Shown piece by piece: positions 1,236 through 19,500 of a stretch of 52,614 nt of DNA. Numbering within the stretch: position 1 is the stretch's first letter; every line of letters starts with the position of its first letter. The DNA is taken from the NCBI GenBank assembly GCA_030600585.1, contig JAUVLU010000017.1, positions 1-52,614 of the forward strand. The letters are read 5' to 3'. Origin of the DNA: Candidatus Cloacimonadota bacterium (GTDB lineage: Bacteria > Cloacimonadota > Cloacimonadia > Cloacimonadales > TCS61). The notes under the pieces were generated by a model. The model searched no databases. It had not been told where the DNA came from and saw only the letters and a program-made list of their open reading frames with translations. The position numbers were made by a program, and so were the translations under genes.

Positions 1236-4200
1236 GTGAAAAAGTTTCTTTTACTAATGTTGCTGTTATTTACAGCACACTCACTTTTTGCGGTATTGGA
1301 ATATCAAATATCCGGTGATGGTTTGGGTATCACTTTTATTAATGATGATAAATCTTTGGAACAAAGTGACTTGAATAAGATAATTGCATTACCGTCTATG
1401 AGTGTGGAAATTATGATTAATGGATGTGAAATAGCTGAGTATTCTGATAATGGAGAATTACTTAGAACACACTCTATTGGCGGTGAGGACTATATTGAAC
1501 TACAAAAAAGTTTTGTGATGCGAGATCTCTATGCTCATCAAATTAAAATAAACAAAACTAAAAAGACAGATGGAATATCAACTGTTTTGAAAAGTATGGA
1601 TATTGAATTGAAAATGACAGATCCGGTTCAAATTCCACAAAGGATCTCTTCGGCATTTCTACCGATTTATAGTTCCATAGTAGATAACTTCGAGAGATCA
1701 TACTTGCGGGATGCTTCAGTAGCACCAGCTAAAATGCTTATCATAACTCATCAAAGTTTATTGAACGATGTACAGGTTTTTACTGACTGGAAAAATCAAA
1801 AAGGAATTGAAACTGAAGTTGTAACAATAGAAGATATTGGTAGTACAAATTCTCAGATAAAGGCATATATTCAAAATATTTATGATACATCAGAAGACCC
1901 ACCTGATTATATTCTTTTAACAGGTGATACGGACAATATTTACGAAATACCTTCTTTCTATATAGTAAGTACCGGAGGAGATAATAATGTTACCGACCAT
2001 CCATACACACTTTTAGATGGTGACGATTATTTTCCGGAAATGATCATCGGCAGGATGTCATTTGATGTTTTAATAGAATTCCAAACTATGATAGCAAAGA
2101 CTCTATACTATGAAAAAGAACCGTTTATGGATACTACTCACTGGTTTGAGAATGCTACGCTTGTAGCTGGAAATTACAGTTCCTCTCCACCATATCCTAC
2201 AACTCCCGTAAAAGTTACAAAATGGCTTAATGATAAAATGCATGAATACGGTTACCAGGATATTGATGAGTTTTATTATTGGCCTCCATATTATAATGTT
2301 AATCCGGGTACATCTCTGATCACTGCTTCTATAAATGATGGAGTGGGAGTTGTAAGTTATCGCGGTTGGGGAGATGCCAATGGCTGGCATTTTCCACATT
2401 ATCACGTAGATAATATGGATGACTTAAATAATTACAAAATGCTGCCTATTATGACATCGATCGTATGTAATACCGGAGATTTTGCAAACAGTGTTGATCC
2501 TTGTTTCGGTGAAGCTTGGATAAGACTGGGTAGTCCTTCGAACCCAAAAGGCGGCGTAGTCTTTATAGGTCCATCTGATCTGCATACAAGTACAAAACTA
2601 AATAATTCTATCTTCTCAGGTTTTTGGTACGGAGTGCTGGATGAAGATAACCTTGCTTTTGGAAGTGCTGTATTACGCGGAAAATATGAACTTTATGATA
2701 ATTTTCCTTTAAATAGAGAACCGGGCGGCGATGTTGAGTTTTATTTTCATGTTTATAATATTCTCGGTGATCCTTCATTATCTATCTGGACAACAGTTCC
2801 ACAGGATATTTCCTGCTCTTTACCTGCGGAAGTTAATATTGGAACGAACTTCATTGAAATAGATATGCCAAATTTGGACGGAGCAATTGTAACAGCAATT
2901 AAAGATGAAGAATTTTCTTCTACTGCTGTTGTAGAAAACGGTTCTGCTCTTGTTTATCTTGAGTCTTTAACAGAAGGCGAAATCTTACTTACTATTACAA
3001 AACCAAATTATCATCCGTTACAAGATACAATCAATGTTATACAGGCTGATGTCGATCTTGGTCTTGAGAATGTTTCTCCGGCAAGTGCAATAATCGCAGG
3101 AGTAACTGTGCAGCTCGATCTTACTTTGAAGAACTTTGGAACTCAAACTGCAAGTTCGGTTTCTGCAGATCTTAATTCAAGTAATGGTAATATGAATATT
3201 ATTACAACATCTGCCGATTTTGGTGATATTAATGCCGGATCTACAGCAACGGAAGGATATGAGATCGAGATAAATTCTAACTGCCCGAATAACGAGATTA
3301 TCGAATTTAATCTTGCAATTTCCGATGGCAGCACCTCTAAATTCCAAATTATTGTCAGCAGTTTAATATTTGAATTTGAGAATGTTGTTGTAAATGACGA
3401 GAATGGAATTCTGGAACCGAACGAGGAAAGTGATATTTCTGTTTCCTTTAAAAATATCGGTTCTTTTAACGCAACTTATCTCGGTGCTGAGCTTATTGCA
3501 TTATCCGAAGATGTAAATATAATAATTTCCAACTTTGCGGTGGGTAATGTAAATATTGATGAAACAGCTATAGCTGAATTTACCGTTCAGGCTGCAGAAG
3601 ATTGTTTTGTTGGAATAAGCGTTCCATTCCAAATGAATATCTCCGATGCTGACGGGCTAACAACAACTATTTATTTTAGTCTGGAAATTGGAGATATTGA
3701 TCAATATGCACCGACAGGTCCTGATGTTTTTGGATATTATGCTTATGATAGTTTTGACCAGTTTTATGTAAATTGCCCTGAATATGAATGGATCGAGATC
3801 GATCCGCAGGAAGGCGGCAGTGGACAGGTATTTGAGCTGGGTGATGATAGATCAGAGACGATTTCAATGCCATTTGATTTCCAATTTTATGGTGAAGTCA
3901 GCGACAGTTTGACAATATGTACAAATGGCTGGATAGCGATGCAGCCAACTTGGGAAACATATTTTAGAAATTGGAATATTCCTTCCGCTCTGGGTCCGTA
4001 TGGCATGATAGCTCCTTATTGGGATGATCTTATCGGAGAAGTTATTGGAGACGAACATGCTTATATGCGGATCTGTTATTTCTATGATGAAATAGAAAAT
4101 ATCTTTATCGTAGAATGGAATAAATGTGTTAATAGATACGATAATACATCTATTGAAAAATTCGAGATTGTTCTCTATGATCCGGCCTTTTATCCAACTG

Positions 4201-5357
4201 TTAGCGGTAATGGTAATATCCAGTTTAATTATAAATTAGTTAATAATCCCGATGCAAGTAGTAATTATGCTACAGTAGGAATTGAAAATTACGATCAATC
4301 TGCAGGATTACTTTATACTTATACTAATATCTATCCGCAAAGTGCTTCACCTCTTCAAAATGAATTTTCAATCAAGTTCACAACACAAGAACCGGAGTTT
4401 ATTGCTCCTGCAGTTCCAACAGCAGATTTTACTGTTGAGAGAACTTATGGCATTACTCCTTTTGAAGTGAGCTTCATTAATCTCACTTCTCCACCTTATT
4501 ATTATAATGAATTTATATGGGAATTCGGAGATGAAGGTGCAACTTCAGAAGAACGCCATCCAATTTATACTTTCTCTGATCCGGGGAGTTATGATATTAC
4601 ACTTTCGGTAGAAAATATAGAAGGTTCAGATGAGATCACTAAAAATGGATATATAAATGTTCATTCGGCTGAAGGATTGATCTGGCCCGGAGATACTAAT
4701 AATAATGGTGTTGTGAACGCAGAAGATATTTTGCCGATCGGTGTTTATTGGCGTCAAAGCGGTAATGCCAGAACTAATGCATCTCTTGTATGGGAAGCTA
4801 ATGATTACCCCGGAGGATGGGAAATAGATGTAGCATCACTGGCAGATTGCGATGGTAATGGTGAAGTTAATATTGCCGATGTCCTTGCTATTGGTTTGAA
4901 CTGGGGAGCTGTTCATAGTTCAGTTATGAGTTTACCACCATTCAGCCCTGAAGAATTAGAAGCAAGCCGTTCTAATTTTGAAGATATTTACTATTCTTTG
5001 GGAAATACCGGAAATGAACTGTTGATAAAAAATTATATTGCTCGTGAATTTGACCTGCCGATTATTCAGCCGATCGAGATAAATAGTCTGAAACAAAATT
5101 ATCCCAATCCTTTTAACCCGGAAACTAATATTTTCTATTCTATCATAGATAATGGCTCTGTGGAATTATCTATCTATAATATTAAAGGTCAGCTTGTAAA
5201 ACAACTCGTGAATTCCTCTATGAATGCAGGTGAGCATAATGTTATATGGAATGGAAAAGATTCAACCGGCAGAAAAGTGAGTAGTGGATTGTATTTCTAT
5301 AAACTGAAATTAAATGGAAAAACAATTGATACAAAAAAAATGATGTTATTGAAATAG
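1236..5357 (+). CDS. Gingipain-like C25 family protein with PKD, dockerin and type IX sorting domain
   Basis: 1373 residues; GTG start chosen because GGAGG lies at 1227-1231 and the overlapping ATG at 1234 is followed by a stop. Order: signal peptide (1-19), propeptide-like part, C25 peptidase fold (about 165-515, ending in the family motif YNILGDPS), an Ig-like domain, two CARDB-like modules (about 605-810), a beta-rich domain (825-1055), a PKD domain (1065-1148), a two-loop dockerin (calcium loops starting D1153 and D1204) and a sorting domain (from N1288). The nucleophile motif is intact (IVCNTGDF, Cys411). The family GHG histidine is replaced by tryptophan (YRGWGDANGW, Trp378), so activity is uncertain, although several histidines follow directly. 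The next gene, 38 bases on, encodes a cohesin-like lipoprotein, a plausible partner of the dockerin. Confidence 0.9.
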   Translation: MKKFLLLMLLLFTAHSLFAVLEYQISGDGLGITFINDDKSLEQSDLNKIIALPSMSVEIMINGCEIAEYSDNGELLRTHSIGGEDYIELQKSFVMRDLYAHQIKINKTKKTDGISTVLKSMDIELKMTDPVQIPQRISSAFLPIYSSIVDNFERSYLRDASVAPAKMLIITHQSLLNDVQVFTDWKNQKGIETEVVTIEDIGSTNSQIKAYIQNIYDTSEDPPDYILLTGDTDNIYEIPSFYIVSTGGDNNVTDHPYTLLDGDDYFPEMIIGRMSFDVLIEFQTMIAKTLYYEKEPFMDTTHWFENATLVAGNYSSSPPYPTTPVKVTKWLNDKMHEYGYQDIDEFYYWPPYYNVNPGTSLITASINDGVGVVSYRGWGDANGWHFPHYHVDNMDDLNNYKMLPIMTSIVCNTGDFANSVDPCFGEAWIRLGSPSNPKGGVVFIGPSDLHTSTKLNNSIFSGFWYGVLDEDNLAFGSAVLRGKYELYDNFPLNREPGGDVEFYFHVYNILGDPSLSIWTTVPQDISCSLPAEVNIGTNFIEIDMPNLDGAIVTAIKDEEFSSTAVVENGSALVYLESLTEGEILLTITKPNYHPLQDTINVIQADVDLGLENVSPASAIIAGVTVQLDLTLKNFGTQTASSVSADLNSSNGNMNIITTSADFGDINAGSTATEGYEIEINSNCPNNEIIEFNLAISDGSTSKFQIIVSSLIFEFENVVVNDENGILEPNEESDISVSFKNIGSFNATYLGAELIALSEDVNIIISNFAVGNVNIDETAIAEFTVQAAEDCFVGISVPFQMNISDADGLTTTIYFSLEIGDIDQYAPTGPDVFGYYAYDSFDQFYVNCPEYEWIEIDPQEGGSGQVFELGDDRSETISMPFDFQFYGEVSDSLTICTNGWIAMQPTWETYFRNWNIPSALGPYGMIAPYWDDLIGEVIGDEHAYMRICYFYDEIENIFIVEWNKCVNRYDNTSIEKFEIVLYDPAFYPTVSGNGNIQFNYKLVNNPDASSNYATVGIENYDQSAGLLYTYTNIYPQSASPLQNEFSIKFTTQEPEFIAPAVPTADFTVERTYGITPFEVSFINLTSPPYYYNEFIWEFGDEGATSEERHPIYTFSDPGSYDITLSVENIEGSDEITKNGYINVHSAEGLIWPGDTNNNGVVNAEDILPIGVYWRQSGNARTNASLVWEANDYPGGWEIDVASLADCDGNGEVNIADVLAIGLNWGAVHSSVMSLPPFSPEELEASRSNFEDIYYSLGNTGNELLIKNYIAREFDLPIIQPIEINSLKQNYPNPFNPETNIFYSIIDNGSVELSIYNIKGQLVKQLVNSSMNAGEHNVIWNGKDSTGRKVSSGLYFYKLKLNGKTIDTKKMMLLK

Positions 5358-5407
5358 GAACACAAAGCTATGTCTTTGTGAGGTAAAATAGAAAAATGGA
5401 GAATAAA

Positions 5408-5950
5408 ATGTTTAGAATTGTGTTTAATCCCGAAATATTTGGGAAAAAAATATTCTTCCTGTTAATAATTGCGACAATGATATTTTCGATATCCTGCTCG
5501 AGTGATTCAACAGAACCTGAAGAAGAAAATCTTAAATTAATATTCAGTCCGGCAGAACAAACTGTACCGATAAATACGGAAGCCGATTATGTTATTAAGG
5601 TTGAAAACGCTGAGAACTTGTTCGGTTTTTCTGCTGAAATTGTATTTGATAATTCAGTAGCAGAATTAGTTTCAAATAGTGTGGTCGTTGGAGGATTCTG
5701 GAATACTGATTTGGTTGAGATGAGTGTTATTGAAGATGACAGACTAAGTATTACGATAAGTTTGCAGCAGACTTCCAATGAAGATGGTATCGATGGTAAT
5801 GGAGAGCTTTTTACTTTTAATATTAAGGGTATTGCAGTTGGAGAAAGTGATCTGATATTTGAAAATTTACTAATGATCGATGAGGATGGTGATGCAGTTT
5901 CTAATTTTGATGGAATCGAGATCATAAGCGGGGAATTAATAGTAGAATAA
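5408..5950 (+). CDS. Outer-membrane lipoprotein with cohesin-like domain
   Basis: About 180 residues. An upstream ATG exists at 5396, but ATG 5408 has GGAG at 5398-5401 at good spacing and gives a cleaner signal peptide; the choice is not certain. The hydrophobic segment IFFLLIIATMIFSIS ends in a cysteine followed by SSDSTEPEEE, a lipoprotein signal with a relaxed lipobox and an acidic tether. The remainder reads as a cohesin-type beta sandwich: VENAENLFGFSAEIVFDNSV, a middle strand set, then GELFTFNIKGIAVGESDLIF. Cohesins bind dockerins, and the preceding gene ends with a dockerin plus sorting domain. The stop is one base away from the pgsB start, so it is probably translated with the polymer genes. 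It may instead be a general adhesion module. Confidence 0.75.
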   Translation: MFRIVFNPEIFGKKIFFLLIIATMIFSISCSSDSTEPEEENLKLIFSPAEQTVPINTEADYVIKVENAENLFGFSAEIVFDNSVAELVSNSVVVGGFWNTDLVEMSVIEDDRLSITISLQQTSNEDGIDGNGELFTFNIKGIAVGESDLIFENLLMIDEDGDAVSNFDGIEIISGELIVE

Positions 5951-5951
5951 T

Positions 5952-7118
5952 ATGTATGGTTTGATAATTGGATTGATGATGTTGATAACTTTTGGGATTT
6001 ATGAATTCCAGAAGTGCAAGATCAGCAGAAAAAAAATTCCTATGATCATTCACGTGAATGGAACCAGGGGTAAATCTAGTGTTACACGTCTTATTGCTGC
6101 CGGACTTCGTGCCGGAGGGAAAAAGACGATCGCCAAAACTACAGGTTCTGCTCCAGCATTAATTTACGAGGATGGAAGTGAAATACCTATTATAAGACAT
6201 CATGGAGCGAATATTAAAGAGCAGATCAAAATCATAAAATTTGCCGCAAAAAGAAAAATTGATATTCTTGTTCTTGAGTGTATGGCTGTTACTCCTGAAT
6301 ACCAATGGGTTACAGAACATGAGATAGTACAATCGAATATTGGTATTATTACAAATTCCAGATTAGATCACTTAGATGTTATGGGACCCGGATTAAGGAA
6401 TGTAACACGCTCTCTTTGTAATACAATTCCCAAACATGGTGTTCTGTTTACTGCCGAGAAAAAAGTTTTTTCTATTATCCAAAAAGAAGCAAAGAAAATT
6501 CACTGTGAGATAATTCAATCTGATGATTCCGAAATTTCCAACGAAGATATACATGGATTTTCATATATTGAACATAAGGATAACGTTGCTCTATCAATAA
6601 AGGTCTGCGAGCATTTTGGAATTGATAAAAAAACGGCTATTGAGGGTATGTATAATGCACAACCTGATATTGGAGCAATGGAAATTTATAAACATAAAAT
6701 CAAAAATAAAGAACTTCATTTCGTTCACGCTTTTGCAGCAAATGATCCGGAATCTACAGAATTTGTTATCAACTCGGTAAAAAGTCTTTACCCTCATACT
6801 CATGCGGTTGCCATTGTGTTAAGTACGAGAGCGGACAGATTATTCCGTTCCAAACAGCTTGTACGTATGCTTAAAGATGTAGATCATGACCACTTATATT
6901 TGATTGGTGAACAAACCAATACAATATATTCTTATGCGATGAGTAATAACTTGGATAAGAAAATAATTACTGATTGCGGTTGGGTAACCGGAGATGAGTT
7001 GACAAATTATGTAGTAAAATTACCAGCGAAAGAGATACTTATACTGGGTATTGGTAATATCGGTGGGAATGGTGGAATTATTGTAAATTATTATAAAGAA
7101 AGGAATAAAAATGTTTGA
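5952..7118 (+). CDS. pgsB: Poly-gamma-glutamate synthase ligase subunit PgsB/CapB
   Basis: 388 residues, matching the family length of about 390. An N-terminal membrane segment (residues 3-17) is followed by a Mur-ligase-type ATP site, VNGTRGKSSVTRL (residues 35-47), and other family stretches such as ECMAVTPEYQW, ITNSRLDHLDVMGP and the C-terminal LGIGNIGGNG. PgsB/CapB forms gamma-linked glutamate amide bonds using ATP at the inner face of the membrane. It begins one base after the cohesin lipoprotein and overlaps pgsC by eight bases, so it sits in a tight operon. The substrate being glutamate is inferred from the family. Confidence 0.95.
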   Translation: MYGLIIGLMMLITFGIYEFQKCKISRKKIPMIIHVNGTRGKSSVTRLIAAGLRAGGKKTIAKTTGSAPALIYEDGSEIPIIRHHGANIKEQIKIIKFAAKRKIDILVLECMAVTPEYQWVTEHEIVQSNIGIITNSRLDHLDVMGPGLRNVTRSLCNTIPKHGVLFTAEKKVFSIIQKEAKKIHCEIIQSDDSEISNEDIHGFSYIEHKDNVALSIKVCEHFGIDKKTAIEGMYNAQPDIGAMEIYKHKIKNKELHFVHAFAANDPESTEFVINSVKSLYPHTHAVAIVLSTRADRLFRSKQLVRMLKDVDHDHLYLIGEQTNTIYSYAMSNNLDKKIITDCGWVTGDELTNYVVKLPAKEILILGIGNIGGNGGIIVNYYKERNKNV

Positions 7119-7560
7119 AGTTGCAATTGGTTTAGGAGTATTGATCAGCTTGTTCTTTCTGGAGATTTTTGGGGCAGCTGCGGGTGGAATAGTGGTTGCC
7201 GGTTATGTGGCGATGTATCTGCATCAACCCATCACAATTTTAGCAACATTATCAATTAGTATTATCGTATTTATAATTGTTAAAATTCTTGGTAACTTTA
7301 TATTTATTTATGGAAGAAGGCGGATGGTAATAACCGTTCTTCTCGGATTTATTATTGGTTGGCTGGCTAGATACTATGGTGTTTTTGCCAATCTCTCGTC
7401 AGATTATTCTGTTAATGTAATTGGATTTATTATTCCGGGTCTTATTGCTAATGCAATGGAAAAACAAGGTATTATTAAAACGCTTTCTATCATGTTTATA
7501 GCGGCAGTGATTGTGCGATTTTTATTAATATTGATATTTGGCGGAGAGATCATAGGATAA
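7111..7560 (+). CDS. pgsC: Poly-gamma-glutamate synthase membrane subunit PgsC/CapC
   Basis: 149 residues, almost entirely hydrophobic with about four to five membrane helices and short charged loops (YGRRRMV, ARYYG), the length and profile of PgsC/CapC. It overlaps the end of pgsB (ATG inside AAAATGTTTGA) and has an AAGGAA ribosome site. The glycine-rich start GLGVLISLFFLEIFGAAAGGIVVAGYVA is typical of the family. It partners PgsB to form the membrane synthase complex. No pgsA/capA metallophosphatase gene is found in the window. Confidence 0.92.
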   Translation: MFEVAIGLGVLISLFFLEIFGAAAGGIVVAGYVAMYLHQPITILATLSISIIVFIIVKILGNFIFIYGRRRMVITVLLGFIIGWLARYYGVFANLSSDYSVNVIGFIIPGLIANAMEKQGIIKTLSIMFIAAVIVRFLLILIFGGEIIG

Positions 7561-7568
7561 GGAGAATC

Positions 7569-8672
7569 ATGTTTATTCCCAGTGCAAAATCAAAATTTAG
7601 TTTAATTATTTTAATGCTTGTTGCAATAGCATTATTTATATGGGTAGATAATTCACGAGTTTTTATGAGTGATAAATATTATGAAGAGAAGCTTGCAGCG
7701 GCTGAATTAATGCAAAGAGCTGAATTAGCTATAAAGGAATATAGAAATTCAGAAGGAATATATATAGATGAAGTTAACGATCCTAATAGAACTGCAATGA
7801 TAGGTGAAAAACAATCACCAATTGTTACAGATCGTGGTGATCTGACTTCTAAACTGACGAGTTTGAATCCGAATTTTGCAGCATTGGTAGTTGAGATGTT
7901 CAAAGAAGCTAATTTAAAAAAAGGTGATAAGATCGCAATTAGTTGTACAGGTTCCTTCCCTGCATTAAATATTGCCGTATTAAGTGCTGCAAAGATTATG
8001 GAATTGGAACCCGTGATCATATCTTCGGTCGGAGCTTCCATGTTCGGGGCTACAGATCCAGATTTTACCTGGCTCGATATGGAAGAATTCTTTATTCAAA
8101 AAAATATATTTGAATTTCAAAGTATAGCTGCTTCAATTGGCGGTGGACGCGATCTCGGAAGAGGATTGAGCAAAAACGGGCGTGAACTTATTATTAAGAA
8201 TATCAATAAACATAATATTCAATTAGTTCATGAGGAAACATTAGAACAGAACATCTTTAAGAAAATGGAACTTTTTAAAGCTTCCGGTCAAAATAATATT
8301 GCTCTTTATGTAAATATCGGAGGTGGACTTTCCAGCATTGGGGTAACATTGAATGGGAAATTGATCGATCCGGGATTTCATCGTTATCTTTCATTAATAA
8401 ATACACCTCTTAAAGGTACAATGCTGCTTTTTGCGGATGAAGGAATACCTGTTGTTCATCTGTTAGACATCACCAGACTCGCGGAAAAAAAAGAGCTTCC
8501 AATAGCTCCAGATCCGCTTCCTGAGCCGGGTAATGGAAGTATGTTCGAAAATGAAAAGTATAATCTTACAATTACCTCCATTTCTTTTGCAATATTAGTG
8601 ATTCTAATTTTAATTGTGATATTTTTTGATCATAAAGAATTAAAAATAAAAGATGATGAAATCAATGTTTAA
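7569..8672 (+). CDS. pgsW: Poly-gamma-glutamate system protein, PgsW-like
   Basis: 367 residues with an AAGGAG site just upstream. Residues 9-25 form an N-terminal membrane anchor (FSLIILMLVAIALFIWV) and about 333-352 a C-terminal one (ITSISFAILVILILIVIFF), leaving a soluble domain between them. The body contains family-like stretches: SPIVTDRGDLTSKLTSLNPNF, ISCTGSFPALNIAVL, SSVGASMFGATDPDFTWLDME and IGGGRDLGRGLS. This matches the poly-gamma-glutamate system protein that replaces or accompanies PgsA in some diderms. Its biochemical role is not established. It lies directly after pgsC in the same operon. Confidence 0.85.
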   Translation: MFIPSAKSKFSLIILMLVAIALFIWVDNSRVFMSDKYYEEKLAAAELMQRAELAIKEYRNSEGIYIDEVNDPNRTAMIGEKQSPIVTDRGDLTSKLTSLNPNFAALVVEMFKEANLKKGDKIAISCTGSFPALNIAVLSAAKIMELEPVIISSVGASMFGATDPDFTWLDMEEFFIQKNIFEFQSIAASIGGGRDLGRGLSKNGRELIIKNINKHNIQLVHEETLEQNIFKKMELFKASGQNNIALYVNIGGGLSSIGVTLNGKLIDPGFHRYLSLINTPLKGTMLLFADEGIPVVHLLDITRLAEKKELPIAPDPLPEPGNGSMFENEKYNLTITSISFAILVILILIVIFFDHKELKIKDDEINV

Positions 8673-8673
8673 A

Positions 8674-9552
8674 ATGAAAAAGATACTTATATCATTAGCA
8701 TTATTAGGAATAACTCTCTCAGTTATGGCTGCGGATATCCACTATAATTCGGATCCGGAGGAGTTCTTAGTTTACAACAGAAGAAACAGTAAGATCTATA
8801 ATTATTTTCTTCTTAAACCTGCTGAGAATATTTCCTGTACTCTTATCAATGTAGATACCCTGAATGTGTATTCTCGTACAATTATAAACAATGTTTTTTC
8901 ATTAAATTATCAATATAAGGTTAAAATTGGGAATATAGAGAAAGTATTGGAAAAATTTGCTAAACTAAGTAAAACAAGCAGAAGTGTTAATGGGGAAAAT
9001 ATTTCCAGCTATAATAAATTCGCAAAAAAAATAAATGAGGAAAAAGTCTCATTTACATTAACGAATATTTCGCAGAATGATCTGGTTTTCAAAATCTCTG
9101 CAAATAATGTTGTTACTTCCAACAAAGAAATAGATTATATCCGTTATACACCAAGTTTTTATGGAGGCGAAAAAACTTTAGTTATTAATCAGAAAGAATA
9201 TACATATTACATACCCAAATCAGATAAAATCCAACTAACTCTTGAAGGTCCGATAGTATTGAAGATAATTAGCCGAATGTTATTTGATACAAATTACATA
9301 AATGATTCAGGATATCGTTATAGGGTGTTTGACAATAGAGAGTTTTTTACTGAGTTTACTGAGAAGGCTTATAAATCTAAGAGTAGCTGGATCAGTAATG
9401 AACCTGATTTAATTCCTTCTACCGGTGATGTGAATATAATAAAACTATCTGCGGGGATTCATCACATTTCTATTGAGGATAAAGATAAAAACAGAGATCT
9501 GATCTTTAGATTTTATATAAATAAAGAGTCAGTTGAGATTGAAAAGCAATGA
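8674..9552 (+). CDS. Exported protein of unknown function in the polymer operon
   Basis: 292 residues from ATG 8674; in-frame ATGs at 8653, 8656 and 8665 would overlap the end of pgsW. The start at 8674 gives a clean signal peptide (KKILISLALLGITLSVMAADI). The mature part is predicted mixed beta, rich in N, K, Y and S, with no cysteine cluster or enzymatic motif that I recognise. It ends in an ATGA overlap with the next gene, which encodes a predicted outer-membrane barrel, so both are probably made together. A periplasmic accessory protein for polymer export or anchoring is a guess from position only. Confidence 0.75.
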   Translation: MKKILISLALLGITLSVMAADIHYNSDPEEFLVYNRRNSKIYNYFLLKPAENISCTLINVDTLNVYSRTIINNVFSLNYQYKVKIGNIEKVLEKFAKLSKTSRSVNGENISSYNKFAKKINEEKVSFTLTNISQNDLVFKISANNVVTSNKEIDYIRYTPSFYGGEKTLVINQKEYTYYIPKSDKIQLTLEGPIVLKIISRMLFDTNYINDSGYRYRVFDNREFFTEFTEKAYKSKSSWISNEPDLIPSTGDVNIIKLSAGIHHISIEDKDKNRDLIFRFYINKESVEIEKQ

Positions 9553-10589
9553 AAAAATATTTATTCTTATTTATGATAATTATTGCAAGTTCACTTGCAG
9601 CAAAGAATTTTTTATTCTATGCTGACATCTCATTGAAAACTTCTTATAATAGCAATATCCTAAGTCTTTCACAAAATGATCTGGATAGATTCGTTAGCGG
9701 TAAAGAATTAGATAAATTTTCACTTAAAACTTCTGATGATCTTATCACTTCCGCAAAAGTAGAATTGAATTTGAAACACCGAATTATGGCTGGTCATACT
9801 CAAATTAACAGAATTGCTATAAAATATAATAAATATTTAAAGAACGATTTTAAAGATAATTATTATTTGGAATTTGCTTTAAAACAATTTTTAAGTAAAA
9901 AGCTGAATTTTGGATTTTATTATTACCACTATCCTGAAATTTATATCAACAAATATGATAGTGTATTGGACACTGAAACTGTTTTCCGTGACTTTACATA
10001 TTCCAAGAATATTTATCTCGGCAAAGTAAATTACAAACTTAATTCAGAATTTCAATTTAATTATAAATTGTGGTTTTCACAATTATTCTATAATGAATAT
10101 TTCACGGAATATGATGCAGAAAATATTGAAAATGGAATTGAAATTAAAATAATTCCGGCAAGTTGGATCAGGATCATTTCGGGTTACACATATAAAATAT
10201 CAAATGCAAAAGCGGGAGGTGCTTTTAGTAATCCGCAGCAGGTAACAATAATAAAAGATGCATCTTATCAAGCTGATATATTTGATCTCTCATTAGATTT
10301 TCCTGCAGTAATGTCGGCGTTTTCAAATCCGGTTAATTTTAGTCTTGGTGCAAAATATGAACATTATTATTTCCATGCTGAAAATGAACTGGATGAATAT
10401 CATTATGGCAGAGAAGATAAGATACTAACTTTTAATTCCGATGCAAAATGCAAAATAACGGATGTTATTTCGCTTAAATATTATTACAAGTACAAGGTTA
10501 GAAAAACCGGTTCGCCCTACACAAATGTTGAAGTAGATAAAGAATACAACTTATACGAAACAGGTATGTCGCTGGTTTATTCTTTGTAA
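9549..10589 (+). CDS. Predicted outer-membrane beta-barrel protein of the polymer operon
   Basis: 346 residues; signal peptide MKKYLFLFMIIIASSLAAK, then a start like many small barrels (FYADISLKTSYNSNILSLS) and long amphipathic strands with alternating aromatics (FGFYYYHYPEIYIN, LNSEFQFNYKLWFSQLFYN, DVISLKYYYKYKVRK), ending in YETGMSLVYSL. These are features of outer-membrane porin-like barrels, although no named family is recognised. The ATGA overlap with the preceding gene and the upstream pgsBCW genes suggest a role in moving or holding the polymer at the outer membrane. It is the last gene of the set; no strong hairpin terminator follows. Confidence 0.75.
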   Translation: MKKYLFLFMIIIASSLAAKNFLFYADISLKTSYNSNILSLSQNDLDRFVSGKELDKFSLKTSDDLITSAKVELNLKHRIMAGHTQINRIAIKYNKYLKNDFKDNYYLEFALKQFLSKKLNFGFYYYHYPEIYINKYDSVLDTETVFRDFTYSKNIYLGKVNYKLNSEFQFNYKLWFSQLFYNEYFTEYDAENIENGIEIKIIPASWIRIISGYTYKISNAKAGGAFSNPQQVTIIKDASYQADIFDLSLDFPAVMSAFSNPVNFSLGAKYEHYYFHAENELDEYHYGREDKILTFNSDAKCKITDVISLKYYYKYKVRKTGSPYTNVEVDKEYNLYETGMSLVYSL

Positions 10590-10887
10590 TATTAACACGA
10601 CACATTTGTCAGATATGTCCCATAAATGTCACGATAATAATATATATACATAATTTGTCTAATATACCTTAAAACTTATATTTTTACATAAAGTGTTTTG
10701 ACCTGTAGATTTATGTAGATGCCGGAATCTACTGAGAAAAATTGATGATTTTGGATTAATTATTGCATAAATATAAAGATAAGTTCATTAAAATAATAAT
10801 TTTAGATTGACAGTAAAATTGAGATAATTATTTATACATGGGTAAACATAAAAAGAAAAAATACATGTTCCTGAAATAGGAGGAAAT
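10590..10887. other. Intergenic region, no gene seen
   Basis: Very AT-rich and without an open frame of interest. It contains the candidate promoter at 10807-10836 and the strong AGGAGG ribosome site of the next gene. A possible imperfect repeat of gacatttgtc-like words lies around 10600-10635, but it is too weak to call a terminator. Confidence 0.5.
10807..10836 (+). promoter_or_regulatory. Candidate sigma70-type promoter
   Basis: A perfect TTGACA at 10807-10812 is followed after 18 bases by TTTATA (10831-10836), about 50 bases before the start of the secreted protein at 10888. The -10 match is modest. Confidence 0.4.
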
Positions 10888-12870
10888 ATGAAGAAATATT
10901 TATTAGTTTTATTTATAGTTTTGGTTTTTAGTACTTTGGTTTTTGGGGTAGCGACTGTTGCTACCGTGGGGATGTCAAATACGAGTGGTGGTGGGACTGG
11001 CACTAATAGTATTCAGGCAGGTGGAGCAGTATATATTAGTGGTACAGCTTCAAATTTAACTCTAGCTTATCAAATTAATAATGTTTATAATGGAGATACA
11101 GGTTCGACTATAGTAGGTGATCTTTATCTCACATATTGGTCACAAACACCTAATAGTGATTATACAGGTTCAATTTATGGTCCAAGTGTTACATTGGACA
11201 CTTTTGCAGGAAGTGGCCCAAATCAAACTACCTTCACAGCTGATTTTACAATGCCAACAACTGGAATTCCTAGTAATACTCTTTACATAACAATATATCT
11301 TGGTTTAGAAGAGAGGAATAGAGGTAATTATGGTTATGGAGCAGTAATTGAATCTGATGTTGATGTTACCTCTGCCCCAACTGGATATTTTACTCGTCTG
11401 GACTATACAGCCGACACCTCAACCGAAGCACCCACCTTAGATTTACCCTTATCTAATGCAACCATTGGTGCAAGTTTTGATCTTCAATATGACCAGCCGG
11501 AAACTGCTTATGCAAGTACTGTAAAAATAACATTAACACGTACAGCCGGATCAGCTGATACTGAATCACCTCACGTATTAGAGGTTGATAGTGAAGCTTC
11601 CGATACGGATATACTATTAAATATTAAAGGTGATGGACTCGGAGGAGCAACTGGTGTAAGTTTATTTAGTGGTGGCAACCTTCTTGTTACCGGTTCCATT
11701 TATACTATAAGAATAGAATATCAGGATTTGGCTCAGAATCCGATTGCTTATGATGAACATTATGGAATCACGTATGATTCCGGTGCTCTTTTAGAAGTAT
11801 CCGGTAGTGATTATAATGCTGGAACAAGTTTTAGCCCGGGATCAACTGATAATGCTTTCTTCCGTATCCAGATGCAAAAATCTATCAGTGGAGGAGAAGA
11901 TGCTACAGTTAGTTCAATTGAGTTTGCTTTGGATCTCGGTACTTTTCAATCATCTGATGTTGATGCTATTAGGATTTGGAGATCAACAAATAATAGTAGT
12001 TTTGAATCTGGTACCGATATTCTAATAGCTTCTGATACTTCATCTCCGTTTGATCCATTCAACACTGGTACTATTAGCGAATCTATTGGTGGTGCAGCCC
12101 CAGTTTATTATTTTTTAACAATTGATGTTTCTTCAACTGCGAGCGGAACTGATGAGATAGGTGCAAGGATAATAGAAGCAGCAGATATTTCAGCATCAAT
12201 TACGGTATCAGGTAATTTCCCAATAACCGGAAGTACTCATCCATTACCGGTAACTTTAACCAGTTTTAATGTAGTGCTGTCAGATCAACCGGTAATACAC
12301 TGGGTAACCCAAAGTGAGACAAATAATGCTTATTGGAATATATACAGAGGAATATCACAAAATTTAGGACAAACAATTCAAATCAATTATGGCGATATGA
12401 TATTTGGACAAGGTACTGTTACCGAGCCAACAACATATTCTTATATGGATAATTTCCCAGTTTTAGAAAATACAACATACTGGTACTGGCTGGAATGTGT
12501 TGATAATGCCGGTGAAGCAGATATATTGGGTCCTGTTTCATTATTTATTCCTGAAGGTAACGGCAATAATGGAACACCCGCAACACCGGATGATTATGGT
12601 CTTAAACAAAACTTCCCAAATCCTTTTAACCCGGATACTATGATCAAGTTTGCACTTGACGAAGACAGTCCTGTTCAACTTACTATTTACAACATTAAAG
12701 GTGAAAAGATCAAAACTATCTTTGAAGGCAGCGTTCCGGCTGATATTATACAAACAGCATATTGGAACGGTAAAGATAAAAGTGGGAAAGATGTTGCAAC
12801 CGGAGTATATTTGTATCGTTTGATGACAAACAAAACAAAATACATCAAAAGAATGTTATTAATGAAATAA
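10888..12870 (+). CDS. Secreted beta-rich protein with type IX sorting domain
   Basis: 660 residues with signal peptide MKKYLLVLFIVLVFSTLVFG and an AGGAGG ribosome site. The body is rich in S, T, G and D and predicted all-beta. It includes LPVTLTSFNVVLSDQPVIHWVTQSE, a stretch commonly seen just before sorting domains in this group, and an Fn3-like module (WNIYRGISQN...TTYWYWLECVDNAGEAD). The C-terminal sorting domain starts at LKQNFPNPFNPDTMIKF and ends KRMLLMK. No enzymatic motif is visible; it is probably a surface structural or binding protein. It has its own promoter candidate upstream and a strong terminator downstream, so it is likely monocistronic. Confidence 0.85.
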   Translation: MKKYLLVLFIVLVFSTLVFGVATVATVGMSNTSGGGTGTNSIQAGGAVYISGTASNLTLAYQINNVYNGDTGSTIVGDLYLTYWSQTPNSDYTGSIYGPSVTLDTFAGSGPNQTTFTADFTMPTTGIPSNTLYITIYLGLEERNRGNYGYGAVIESDVDVTSAPTGYFTRLDYTADTSTEAPTLDLPLSNATIGASFDLQYDQPETAYASTVKITLTRTAGSADTESPHVLEVDSEASDTDILLNIKGDGLGGATGVSLFSGGNLLVTGSIYTIRIEYQDLAQNPIAYDEHYGITYDSGALLEVSGSDYNAGTSFSPGSTDNAFFRIQMQKSISGGEDATVSSIEFALDLGTFQSSDVDAIRIWRSTNNSSFESGTDILIASDTSSPFDPFNTGTISESIGGAAPVYYFLTIDVSSTASGTDEIGARIIEAADISASITVSGNFPITGSTHPLPVTLTSFNVVLSDQPVIHWVTQSETNNAYWNIYRGISQNLGQTIQINYGDMIFGQGTVTEPTTYSYMDNFPVLENTTYWYWLECVDNAGEADILGPVSLFIPEGNGNNGTPATPDDYGLKQNFPNPFNPDTMIKFALDEDSPVQLTIYNIKGEKIKTIFEGSVPADIIQTAYWNGKDKSGKDVATGVYLYRLMTNKTKYIKRMLLMK

Positions 12871-12961: not shown

Positions 12962-14620
12962 CTATATCTGAAGTAAGTTCGGCTTACCTTTGACAAAAGC
13001 GACAATCTCTGCAGATGGCAGATTGTCTTGCTTGAATTCTTCTGATCCCGGAATAAAATATATTACCCTTTTTAGGTCAGAAACGGTGAGTTCAATTTTA
13101 TCCAATTGTATTTTGTCTTTTAGTTTGAAGGAATTCAAATACTCAAATCCGTTTTGTTTAGCCTTAATATTTAGATCGGATCTTAAAAATTCAGGATAAT
13201 AATGAGATTTTGCCTGCAGGCACCAATCCCATCTCAAACAATCAAAAAAAAGTTCTTTTTTATTCAGGAATAAAACATTGGCAAATTGCATCAATTTCAC
13301 AGCATTCTTCTTCCAATTCTTAGTTTGCAGATCAAAGTTGCTGGTTTGAAGAAAATCCAAAAGATCACTGAAAAAATCATACGAAGAATCAAATTTTGGG
13401 ATTAAATACTTTAAAGTTGTATTAAATTTATTTGAATTGGAAAATATATTTAATAATGTTTCGATCTTATGGATTTTATTTAGATCATCAAAAGACAGCC
13501 AGCTATTTTTCAAAATAATATATGGACTCATATCCGTTGATATGATACCAAATTTATCTGCATTTTCAGCCATCTCAGTTCCGGGCAGAACTTTGAGGAA
13601 ACCTAACTGGAAATGGTCTGCCTTCAAATTGAATACATCATTGAACGACTTTTTAAATCCGAACATATCTTCATAAGGTAAGCCGGCAATAAGATCGACG
13701 TGGACATGAATATTTCCAAATGAGATAAGTTGATGAACAATATCAGCAGTTTTTTCCCAATTATTTGTTCGGTGAATTGCTTTTAATGTTTCGGGATTAG
13801 TGGACTGAATACCGATTTCAAATTGAAATAATCCTTTTGGACAGTTTTGTAAAATTTGCAGGTCTTCGTCTTCAAGCAGTTCCGAATGTATCTCAAAATG
13901 GAATGTTATATCAGGATCGAGGTTAATCAGGAATTTCCAGATTTTGCGGGAATGTTCTTTTTTTATGTTAAAGGTACGATCGACAAATTTGATGATCCTC
14001 GGTTTTTGCTCGATAAGAAATTTTAATTCTTCTTTTACAATATTAATATTGCGAAATTTCAGAGCTTGATCTGAGCGTGAAGACAGACAATAACTGCATT
14101 TGAATGAGCATCCTCTACTCGATTCGTAATAGATATATTTATCTTTGATCTCAGGGAAATCTGATGGAAGATAAGGAAATGGAAGGTCAGAGAAATGTGG
14201 GTTTCTTTTTCTAATGATCGCATTTTCTTCGTGTAATCCATTTTTCAGGAGGTATCTAAATCCTGCTTCGCCTGCACCACAAACAATGAAATTAATTTCA
14301 GGAAATTTGGTTAACCAATCTTCCGGATTATAACTAACTTCCGGACCACCAAGAATGATCTTAGAATCAGGCAGCACCTTCTTAACTTCCGGTAATAATG
14401 AAAGGATTTTCTCAGTGTTCCAGATATAAACTGAAAATGCCAGTATATCCGGCTTTACATGAGCAATCTGTTCCAGTATTGTTAGAATATCCTGATTAAT
14501 AGAAAACTCAAATATTTCAGTTTTGTATTCGAGATCATCAACAAAATTTCTAAGATATCTTAAAGCAAGATTTGAATGAGTATATCTGGCATTAACACCG
14601 ATTAATAACAGCTTCTTCAT
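12962..14620 (-). CDS. B12-binding domain radical SAM protein (DUF4080-type C-terminus)
   Basis: 552 residues. The N-terminal third resembles a cobalamin-binding Rossmann domain (ILAFSVYIWNTEKILSLLPEVKK, KIILGGPEVSYNPE). The radical SAM cluster motif is Cys171-x3-Cys175-x2-Cys178 in RGCSFKCSYCLS, followed by typical barrel strands (IIKFVDRTFNI, FEIGIQSTNPETLKAIHRTN, VHVDLIAGLPYED). The C-terminal 170 residues resemble the DUF4080 extension. These enzymes use SAM and a 4Fe-4S cluster for radical chemistry, often methylation at unactivated carbons; the substrate is unknown. It follows the nucleotidyltransferase gene by 14 bases and is presumably co-transcribed. A B12 uptake locus further along the window fits a cobalamin need. 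Confidence 0.88.
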   Translation of the reverse strand: MKKLLLIGVNARYTHSNLALRYLRNFVDDLEYKTEIFEFSINQDILTILEQIAHVKPDILAFSVYIWNTEKILSLLPEVKKVLPDSKIILGGPEVSYNPEDWLTKFPEINFIVCGAGEAGFRYLLKNGLHEENAIIRKRNPHFSDLPFPYLPSDFPEIKDKYIYYESSRGCSFKCSYCLSSRSDQALKFRNINIVKEELKFLIEQKPRIIKFVDRTFNIKKEHSRKIWKFLINLDPDITFHFEIHSELLEDEDLQILQNCPKGLFQFEIGIQSTNPETLKAIHRTNNWEKTADIVHQLISFGNIHVHVDLIAGLPYEDMFGFKKSFNDVFNLKADHFQLGFLKVLPGTEMAENADKFGIISTDMSPYIILKNSWLSFDDLNKIHKIETLLNIFSNSNKFNTTLKYLIPKFDSSYDFFSDLLDFLQTSNFDLQTKNWKKNAVKLMQFANVLFLNKKELFFDCLRWDWCLQAKSHYYPEFLRSDLNIKAKQNGFEYLNSFKLKDKIQLDKIELTVSDLKRVIYFIPGSEEFKQDNLPSAEIVAFVKGKPNLLQI

Positions 14621-14634
14621 TAAATTACCTGTTG

Positions 14635-15348
14635 TTAAAGTGAAAACATCTCCTTCGCTCGTGCCAAATCCTCAGGAAAATCGATTTCAATGCAGGGAAT
14701 ACCATCAGTTGATATTGCCTTCAAAATTTTATCTTTAGCCAGCAGATCAACTGCATATTCAAAATAATTGTTAGATTGCCCATTATCTACACCAAACTGG
14801 AGATAATGAACAAAACGTTCTATAATATCCTTATTGAATTTTCCGATACCAATAAATTCTCCGGCACATTTTGGAATTGGAAGCTGCTTACTTATTTGCA
14901 GGATGCGCATATTTTCATCAATTATCATTTTAACTTCTTCTTCTGCACAAGATTTTGTTTCCAATAATAATTGGGAATATTGTGAAGAGTCAGATATTTT
15001 TTTAAGAAGTCCACTTTGGAATAGAACATCAGCATTAAAGTAGATAAAATCATCATTTAAATGATCTCTGGTAAGCCACAATGAATGAAGAGTGTTTGTG
15101 GTATCATAAATTGGATTCTCAATAAAAGTGACTTGATCATGTTTTATTTTTTCCAAAATATGAGCCTTCAATTGTTCCATTTTATATCCCACTACAATTA
15201 CAAAATCATTGATCCCAACATTCATACAGCTTTCAAGCTGATGATGAATTATTGAGCTTTTCCCGATCTTGATCATACTTTTTGGAATATCTCCTGATAC
15301 TTTTTGCAATCTTTTTCCCATGCCTGCAGCCAGAATAACAGCTTTCAT
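14635..15348 (-). CDS. Nucleotidyltransferase of the LicC/sugar-nucleotide type
   Basis: 237 residues. The N-terminus carries the nucleotide-binding signature VILAAGMGKRL, then PKSMIKIGKSSIIHHQLE and the acidic metal site YFNADVLF. This is the alpha/beta fold of enzymes that activate phosphocholine or sugar-1-phosphates with CTP, UTP or GTP. Specificity cannot be read from the sequence; the length of about 240 fits LicC-like cytidylyltransferases. Two ATGs are adjacent; the second (15348) is better spaced from AAGGAG. It is the first gene of a two-gene minus-strand unit with the radical SAM protein. The divergent space to mrp is 211 bases. Confidence 0.82.
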   Translation of the reverse strand: MKAVILAAGMGKRLQKVSGDIPKSMIKIGKSSIIHHQLESCMNVGINDFVIVVGYKMEQLKAHILEKIKHDQVTFIENPIYDTTNTLHSLWLTRDHLNDDFIYFNADVLFQSGLLKKISDSSQYSQLLLETKSCAEEEVKMIIDENMRILQISKQLPIPKCAGEFIGIGKFNKDIIERFVHYLQFGVDNGQSNNYFEYAVDLLAKDKILKAISTDGIPCIEIDFPEDLARAKEMFSL

Positions 15349-15447
15349 CATTTCTCCTTTTCAATATAGATTTTCTTTTCCTATTTCAGAGCCGTCCATT
15401 TCGTCAATGATTTTTTCTAAATACAATAAGGTTTTCAAATGTTGAGT

Positions 15448-16563: not shown

Positions 16564-19500
16564 ATGATAATTGACTCAAGGTACAAAGTAGAAAAAAAAT
16601 TGGGTGCCGGAGTTTGGGCAACAGTATATAAAGTAATTGATCTGAGAACCCAAAAAAATTATGTTCTTAAACTATTCCAGATGCTTGATGCGGATAGTCT
16701 TTATGAAAAATTATCTGCTGAGGACATGCATCATATTACCAAATTACATCATCCCAACCTGATACAGGTGAACGACTTTGGTAATTTTGAGAATCATATA
16801 TATTATCTATGTGAATACTATGAGGGAAAAACACTTTCAAGCTTCAAATATCGTAAATCCAATGAAGAATTGTTTTATGATATTATTGTACAAATCTGTT
16901 ATGCCTTAAGTGCTTTACATAGTCAGAAGATTATTCATAAAGATCTTAAACCCAATAATGTAGTATATACGATAAAGAAAAATCAACTTGTCCTAAAATT
17001 AATGGATTATGGTTTTACAAAGATAGATATAGAGATAACTAATCAAAGAATTGGTAATATCCTACCTTATCTGGCACCAGAAGTGTTTACTGGGAACGAA
17101 GCTGTTACTCAAAGTGATTTTTATTCATTAGGTGTTATGTTATATCAGATCACGACAGGAACTTTGCCATATACAATAGAACAGCTTTCAGCCATTCTTG
17201 CCGGAGATGAATTTAATTTATTCCCTAAGTTCCCAACTGAATTAAATCCTGATATCCCAGACAATCTGGAGAAGATAATTTTAAAATTATTAGAAAAAGA
17301 TCCTGAAGATAGATTCAAGGATGCAGAGAGTATAATTCACCAGATCAATCAAATTCAACCGAAAAATTATCCTTTCTCCAGAAAACAATCGATCGTTAAC
17401 AATATTAAATTCAGTGATTATATTGTTCGTGAAGATTATTCACACAGGTTGCTGGATTATATCCCGATAATTAGTAAGGATAATGGAAAAATTGTTTCTC
17501 TTTCTGCCGGTAAAGGATTGGGGAAAAATAATGTACTTACACTTTTCCGTTACCACTTGTTAACCGATAAATATAACATTTTTGATTACACTTGCAGTTC
17601 TTCCAATAAAGATCCTTTCTTTGCTCTAATCAAAGAATTTTATCGAGCTGCAAAAACTAATAAGAAATTAGCATCTGATCTATTAAAAATATCACCTACA
17701 TTAAGCGAATACCTATTTGATTCTGAGAGATCAACAACTGAACAAAAGTATACTAAAGATGATCTTGAACTGGATTTTAAAACAGCATCAAGTTTTATTT
17801 ATCACCTCTCTGAAGAGAAACCGCTTATTTACATAATCCGACAAGCGGAACATTTAACCAAAGATGTATTCAGCTTCCTGAACTATATCTCTAAAGAAGT
17901 AACAAGACGCCCGATCCTCATAATTCTTAGTATTAATGATCCTCGTAAATTAGTTGGATTAATGCATCCGGTTCAGATGACAATAGATGCTCTCACTTAC
18001 GAACAGACCGAATTATATGTTTATAGATTATTAATGAAAACACCGCCAGCTCATTTTGTTAATAAAATATGGCTGCGTTCAAATGGAAATCCAATGTTCA
18101 TTGAACAGATCCTTCTTGATCTGACTGATAAAAGACTGATCTGGGACTCAAATATGTTCAATTTTGAACATGATCTGGATAAGTATGAATTACCAAATGA
18201 TATTTTGGATGCAATACAGCTTAGGATTGATCATCTCTCTAAATCAAGTTATCAATATCTGAAAAAATTAGCTTGTATAGAAACTCCTCTTTCAAACACA
18301 TTAATAAAATCAATTTTAGGAATAGATGATAAAACCTTATTCTTTCTACTCTCGGAGGGAATTAATAATGAACTTCTAAAAAAAGTGGATGAATATTATT
18401 ATTTTACTTTTAAAGAAGCTCAAGAACATTTTAATAAAGAACTTTCTGATAAAACAAAGAAGATCATTTCAAATAAAGTTCTCAAATATTTCAAAGATAA
18501 GCAAATCACACTTTTTTCTGTTCTCGATGGTATAATTGAACATGCTAAATTTGTTAATGATTATGAAGCTGTGCGTAAGTATTTACTGCTTTCGGTAGAA
18601 TTATTTACGATAAAAGGACAGCATGAAATTGCTTTTGAACAGATTGCAAAAGTTGTAACTCTCGATTTTTCACAGGAATTGAAGATCAAAGAAAGTGATC
18701 TGCTTTTAGACCTTAAACTCTTAATGGAAAAATCTGAATGGGCAACAGATAAACAGATTTCTGAAGAACTGAAGCGCGTTATTTCAAAAATGCCCGATAT
18801 CTCTGAGAAACATATGCTCATTGGTATGTTTTACTTTGTAATAGAAAAATTATCACTTTCTAAAAAGAGATTTGAGAGAGCATTAGGAAAGGCTGTTACC
18901 GGAAGCTTAAGAGTAGAAATTCTTCTCAATTTGTGCCGTATTCTACTATCCCTTAATAAAATTGATGAGATGGGTAAATATATTAAGAAATTAGATGAAT
19001 GTAAACTTCCTGCGGATAAAGAAATATCATATATTATTCATAAAGGGCTTTATTATGGCTTCAGTGGTAATTTAGATGAAGGTATTAATATCATTGAGGA
19101 TTATTTGCAAAATATAAAAACTAAAAATAATCCAAACTATTTTATAAAACTAGGAAGACTTCATAATGGATTGGGTGTTCTATATAGAAATAAAAGACTA
19201 TTAGATGAAGCCGATAGAAACTTTGAAACTGCTAGAAAGATATGGGAACGAATTAACTATAAGCGTCAGCTTGTAGCAGTTTACAATAATATTGGCGATG
19301 TCGCCTTAACAAAAGGCGATACAAAAAAGGCGTTTGAAAACTTCAGAAAAGCAAAGAATATATCTGATCAGATTGATTCAAAACGTTATGGAGTACTGGT
19401 TTTACTTAATCAGGGTGAAGCCCATATAAAGCTTGGAAATTTTACTATAGCAGAGAATTTCTTGAAGAAAGCATACTTATCTTCTAAAAAATTGGAAACG

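Follow-up and report, generated by a model that had tools for sequence, protein, structure and literature searches.

A dockerin-bearing C25-like protein paired with a cohesin lipoprotein ahead of the poly-gamma-glutamate synthase genes in a Cloacimonadota bacterium

Clasps between dockerins and cohesins are known mostly from cellulosomes, in which one scaffold holds many enzymes. A simpler arrangement is OlpA of the Gram-positive Clostridium thermocellum, a surface protein attached through S-layer homology domains, whose single cohesin is able to hold one dockerin protein. The cohesin fold also occurs outside cellulose degradation, as in the Archaeoglobus fulgidus cohesin 2xdh and the Clostridium perfringens cohesin-like module 2jh2. 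In the pgs/cap operons of Bacillus (pgsBCA-E, capBCADE), PgsB and PgsC are the core of the polyglutamate synthase. Within Cloacimonadota, dockerins (including some on C25 proteins), cohesins and the polyglutamate genes CapBC were reported in 2021 from Antarctic lake genomes, among them the cellulosome-like system of Ca. Stygibacter with a ~3755-aa scaffoldin that carries many cohesins (PMC8542988).

The window analysed here, a stretch of 52,614 nucleotides from a Candidatus Cloacimonadota bacterium, has something in common with each of these systems. Ca. Stygibacter belongs to the same phylum and likewise has dockerins on secreted enzymes, C25 included, together with cohesins and polyglutamate genes; the window genome instead pairs its dockerin gene with a single cohesin lipoprotein, and no scaffoldin is recognisable in it. 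OlpA is alike in its single cohesin, yet in the window a lipoprotein bears the cohesin, its partner ends in a type IX secretion (T9SS) tail, and the genes for both lie side by side as a one-to-one pair. Compared with Bacillus, the operon keeps the synthase core and lacks PgsA/CapA; in addition to the core it has PgsW, orf6, T9SS surface proteins and a predicted barrel of the outer membrane (Table 1). We regard it as probable that the first two genes encode a one-to-one dockerin-cohesin anchor set in a conserved polyglutamate operon. An earlier note on this DNA knew of no described system joining such parts, a claim that has to be narrowed: dockerins, cohesins and CapBC had already been reported in the phylum, although with a multi-cohesin scaffoldin and no single-cohesin lipoprotein (PMC8542988). 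In the open-access literature we found no description of a single-cohesin lipoprotein, of the two-gene pairing or of its place in a pgs operon, nor of a lipoprotein serving as anchor for a T9SS dockerin protein encoded next to it.

Table 1. Features of the dockerin-cohesin and polyglutamate gene run, in window coordinates
Feature	Position	Strand	Evidence and remarks
C25-like surface protein, putatively T9SS-secreted, with C-terminal dockerin	1236..5357	+	1373 aa; Pfam/NCBIfam and gingipain R alignment
Peptidase_C25 domain, residues 167-516	1734..2783	+	Pfam, alignments
PKD domain, residues 1080-1141	4473..4658	+	Pfam
Dockerin, residues 1151-1230, two Ca-loops	4686..4925	+	Pfam, joined frame matches, profile, alignment
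Conserved linker after the dockerin, ELEASRSNFEDIYYSLGNTGNELLIKNYIAREF..., common to other module members	4926..5099	+	Alignment
T9SS type A sorting domain, residues 1289-1369	5100..5342	+	Pfam/NCBIfam; SprA in genome
Cohesin lipoprotein (predicted fold)	5396..5950	+	184 aa; AlphaFold, Foldseek, alignment, lipobox
PgsB, poly-gamma-glutamate synthase ligase subunit	5952..7118	+	TIGR04012, 424 bits
PgsC	7111..7560	+	TIGR04011, 125 bits
PgsW, poly-gamma-glutamate system protein	7569..8672	+	TIGR04332, 328.5 bits
orf6, 299 aa, signal-peptide-like N-terminus, no known family	8653..9552	+	Conserved beside pgsW in families f1 and f13
orf7, predicted 14-strand outer-membrane beta-barrel, candidate polymer exit channel	9549..10589	+	AlphaFold, Foldseek, distant homologue

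Open reading frames and family matches placed all parts of the locus where the earlier note had them, down to the lipoprotein gene ending one base before pgsB (the last base of its stop codon is 5950, and 5952 is the first base of pgsB). The C25-like gene starts with GTG and is separated by 38 bp from the lipoprotein gene. Further on, pgsB overlaps pgsC, a gap of 8 bp precedes pgsW, pgsW overlaps orf6 and orf6 overlaps orf7, after which 298 bp separate orf7 from the next gene (10888). Promoter and terminator scans gave nothing above chance level; a single transcript may run across these genes. Beyond them, the window has a B12-binding radical SAM protein and a nucleotidyltransferase (12962-15351), whose position downstream of the pgs operon is kept in several relatives, and a 1811-aa protein (16564-21999) in which a Ser/Thr protein kinase is fused to TPR repeats, GAF and a histidine kinase.

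The calcium-binding loops of the dockerin, DTNNNGVVNAED and DCDGNGEVNIAD, lie ~40 residues apart and are both conserved in 18/18 aligned dockerin sequences. Dockerin_1 (Pfam) scored 17.4 bits by hmmscan, under the cut-off of 22.9, and 27.8 bits once the matches in frame were summed, and a dockerin profile searched against the PDB had a cellulosomal dockerin chain as its best match, with both loops covered. The domain has the two duplicated Ca-binding F-hand loops that define a type I dockerin, in ~79 residues instead of the usual ~60 and with a conserved stretch of ~40 residues between the loops; judged by its sequence, it is a variant form of this type. Another conserved stretch of ~40 residues follows the dockerin and leads to the T9SS tail.

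Family matches of the whole reading frame are Peptidase_C25 (223 bits), Peptidase_C25_C (39) and PKD_4 (38), and its sorting tail is matched by Por_Secre_tail (30.3, cut-off 27) and TIGR04183 (37.1, cut-off 23). The SprA translocon was detected over cut-off in the window genome, so that both marks of type A cargo are there, the sorting domain at the C-terminus and a T9SS encoded by the same genome. Because of this tail and the SprA gene, the C25-like protein is likely to be exported by the type IX system. The description of a type IX secreted C25-like protein with a two-loop dockerin was borne out, in that tail, C25 domain and dockerin were all found. The word "protease-like" in the same description stands for homology and fails for activity. 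The alignment with gingipain R (144.5 bits) spans the catalytic domain and the Ig-like one, and in it the catalytic Cys is retained as Cys411 (2466-2468), whereas the position of the catalytic His is occupied by Trp378 (2367-2369). The same His to Trp replacement is seen in every pgs-linked C25 orthologue that covers the site, with Cys411 invariant, and the C25 domain of these orthologues holds no invariant His; some other C25 paralogues of Cloacimonadota do retain the catalytic His. Compared with the gingipains and PorU, the protein thus has the catalytic Cys in common and lacks the Cys-His dyad of an active Peptidase C25, with a dockerin and a PKD domain in addition. Since the catalytic His is a Trp and no His is invariant, we withhold the label "protease", and a protease activity is doubtful.

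An invariant Cys411 could have another use. The C25-like protein may be a transpeptidase or hydrolase similar to CapD or PgdS, which would use Cys411 to cut gamma-glutamyl chains shorter or attach them to surface molecules while the anchor keeps it near the exit. PorU, a homologue within C25, is a transpeptidase, which speaks for this idea as does the conservation of the Cys in every pgs-linked C25 covering the site. Moreover, M14 zinc carboxypeptidases are encoded just upstream in relatives, and PghP, a known phage polyglutamate hydrolase, is related to carboxypeptidase A (PMC4497714). However, the loss of the catalytic His, which other members of the family in this phylum have kept in some cases, argues against such chemistry, and we consider an enzyme of this kind unlikely. 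Our preferred reading is of an anchored surface protein that would bind or organise the polymer.

The lipoprotein of the window has no Pfam match and no meaningful sequence match in the PDB. Its body (the cohesin spans residues ~46-184) was modelled by AlphaFold from a 15-sequence alignment as a beta-sandwich with pLDDT mostly >90. Among the Foldseek matches listed against the PDB (50), all are cohesins; the best of those listed is the non-cellulosomal cohesin 2xdh (E 9.7e-11, TM 0.80 by target), and the OlpA cohesin-dockerin structure 3ul4, with the same cohesin fold, is also among them. These matches rule out a chance beta-sandwich. In addition, two of the paired lipoproteins pass the Pfam Cohesin cut-off (PF00963, 24.1), L137_1 with 35 bits and G108:C71 with 31.5 bits. 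As far as prediction goes, it is settled that the lipoprotein has the cohesin beta-sandwich (jelly-roll) fold. The earlier note had proposed a cohesin-like domain here and had named the lack of a confident cohesin fold as a result that would count against it; the fold came out confident, and the listed matches agree with it.

The product of this gene has the signal peptide with a lipobox Cys expected of a bacterial lipoprotein: Cys34 (5495-5497) follows a hydrophobic stretch, and a Cys stands at the same place in 28/28 paired genes. The lipoprotein would lie in the outer membrane with its cohesin facing outward. It could, instead, be periplasmic and hold its partner during T9SS export, with no part in surface anchoring. 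In two relatives (L033, L054) an Asp comes right after the lipobox Cys, and in other bacteria an Asp at this position can alter sorting. We know of no T9SS requirement for cargo-specific lipoproteins, however, and the other T9SS-tailed proteins of the window genome have no such dockerin or partner, so that a periplasmic holder appears very unlikely and a surface anchor remains the preferred reading.

A dockerin-profile search of 123 Cloacimonadota genomes gave 34 domains of the window's type. In 28 of them a cohesin lipoprotein gene is directly next on the same strand, with a gap of -1 to 208 bp; three more end at a contig end or within 171 bp of it, and another is followed by a lipoprotein-like ORF that is cut by the contig end. 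L146 has a dockerin of this type without an adjacent cohesin. In L147 (G088, 6408-12046), a Pfam-positive cohesin lipoprotein, a T9SS protein, a lipoprotein-like protein and a divergent dockerin protein form one gene run, where the cohesin lipoprotein is three genes away from the weak dockerin; this is a looser version of the dockerin-cohesin pair. Paired dockerins are carried by C25 proteins, C10 peptidases, PKD/beta-helix proteins and families of ~800 and ~1170 aa, and 13 of the 28 pairs are found at loci other than pgs. The distance matrices of dockerins and cohesins correlate with r = 0.81, a value obtained with the species tree left in, which may largely mirror the common descent of neighbouring genes.

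At the pgs loci, PKD, dockerin and linker are present in 14/14 C25 proteins with the lipoprotein and in 0/11 without it. This split cannot be read as many independent events, as in the PgsB tree the C25 gene was gained once and lipoprotein and dockerin changed once. Independence was therefore looked for at other loci, and was found. In G102, dockerin and linker have been lost precisely from an orthologue of the ~800-aa dockerin protein whose T9SS tail is intact, and of the adjoining cohesin only a truncated remnant with a stop codon is left. The earlier proposal that the lipoprotein holds the dockerin protein is strengthened by the near-obligate pairing, the joint presence and absence and this co-degradation event; what it does not keep is a tie to pgs, since the pair is also found elsewhere and thus has no polyglutamate specificity. 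The dockerin and cohesin-lipoprotein genes look like a two-gene module, reusable for fixing one protein to the surface.

Were the pairing a matter of hitchhiking, dockerin and cohesin would each bind other partners in a cellulosome-like network, as could be imagined from the many cohesins and dockerins of some Cloacimonadota, scaffoldin-size proteins included (PMC8542988). In the window genome, however, there is only one clear dockerin, along with one full-length lipoprotein of the family and no Pfam cohesin, and therefore no recognisable scaffoldin; the multi-cohesin scaffoldin and polysaccharide-degrading dockerin enzymes that make a cellulosome are not found in it. Together with the precise joint loss in G102, this leaves such a network little chance of being the explanation, and a one-to-one anchor is preferred.

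Other dockerins of the phylum deserve mention in their own right. Canonical dockerins occur by the dozen in some genomes (G083, G088-G090, G093, G060, G116 and G117). Several proteins of G117 (L152, G117:C54), of the C25 and M14 families, carry a dockerin at the end that is a T9SS tail in relatives. A single dockerin protein, about 950-970 aa long, is encoded by many members of the Cloacimonas-type family f2. In the one genome examined, G001 (L150, 5205-8084), it is an M14 carboxypeptidase with a dockerin and a T9SS-like tail, followed by a small lipoprotein. The two were considered as a further pair and rejected, the lipoprotein being a DUF192 protein with no cohesin.

PgsB is over cut-off in 104/125 genomes, pgsBCW are widely conserved, and the window has the adjacent PgsB and PgsC equivalogs of a poly-gamma-glutamate synthase, with a PGA_cap gene elsewhere in its genome. 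Of the genomes without pgsB, several are incomplete or have a C25 gene that runs off the end of a contig. Among testable loci, that is those with enough upstream sequence, the gene just before pgsB (or before the lipoprotein gene) encodes a C25 protein in 25/25 of the window's family, across 13 genera, and in 0/22 outside it; the spacing to pgsB is short throughout. Outside the family, in G117, both a C25 orthologue and an M14 carboxypeptidase gene lie downstream of pgs, the latter resembling an M14 gene that precedes C25 in the window's family. The pgs-linked C25 proteins are a distinct orthologue group, with roughly 46-84% identity to that of the window, compared with about 31-37% for the other C25 genes of the same genomes. 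All 17 close relatives in the GTDB collection are Cloacimonadota. From these comparisons the link between C25 and pgs is old and strong, and the gene order, whose absence from relatives had been named beforehand as a sign against the proposal, proved conserved, with the same C25 orthologue before pgsB in all testable loci of the family. Part of this clade has since either gained or lost the cohesin pair. In many relatives (L041, L048-L050, L053, L152), genes of roughly 840-1010 aa and 730-770 aa also adjoin the pgs-linked C25 gene; both in L041 and in L152 the shorter one encodes an M14 zinc carboxypeptidase.

About half of the C25-pgs loci are without the pair, so it cannot be essential to the role of C25 there. 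This observation, and the finding of the pair outside pgs loci, where C10-peptidase, beta-helix and other T9SS proteins carry the dockerin, would agree with an anchor that is real and yet unrelated to polyglutamate, a generic surface display that merely shares an operon with pgs. Against this stand the place of the C25 orthologue, with or without the pair, immediately before pgsB, the short spacing and the orthologue near pgs in the different family of G117. We find generic display somewhat improbable, and prefer an anchor whose cargo may have to do with the polymer.

The way in which such an anchor might work can be sketched as follows. Once the C25-like protein is exported, its Ca-binding dockerin would dock onto the cohesin of the lipoprotein at the outer membrane and so fix the protein at the cell surface, a docking that we infer from the gene pairing. 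The module would be built into an operon whose downstream genes PgsB, PgsC and PgsW, as known for their families, would make poly-gamma-glutamate. From orf6 and orf7 the polymer would probably receive a path across the outer membrane. AlphaFold gave orf7 as a 14-strand barrel (pLDDT 92), similar by Foldseek to CymA/OmpG/PgaA-type barrels including the polysaccharide outer-membrane secretin 4y25, and a distant homologue lies beside pgsBCW in another family; orf7 would be the natural candidate for the polymer exit. The orf6 gene is recognisable in two families; sequence comparison with another family of the order did not reveal it there. At this exit, the C25-like protein might act on or hold the polymer, by binding or organising it and not as an ordinary protease; this is the weakest step. 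A part of the pair in polyglutamate biology is suggested by synteny. Perhaps the whole is a trans-envelope polyglutamate machine, in which the polymer, made by PgsBCW and exported by orf6 and orf7, is captured or organised at the surface by a non-proteolytic protein of gingipain fold that its own cohesin lipoprotein clips to the outer membrane; a dockerin-cohesin clasp would then serve to hold a capsule. We advance this tentatively, as possible rather than probable.

If the pairing is what it appears to be, one dockerin and one cohesin lipoprotein would make a natural plug-in for fixing proteins to the surface of diderm cells, and could supply new clasp pairs for protein engineering. The place of the pair in a phylum-wide polyglutamate cluster, beside a candidate export barrel, may open the export and retention of polyglutamate in diderms, a little studied subject, to direct experimental testing.
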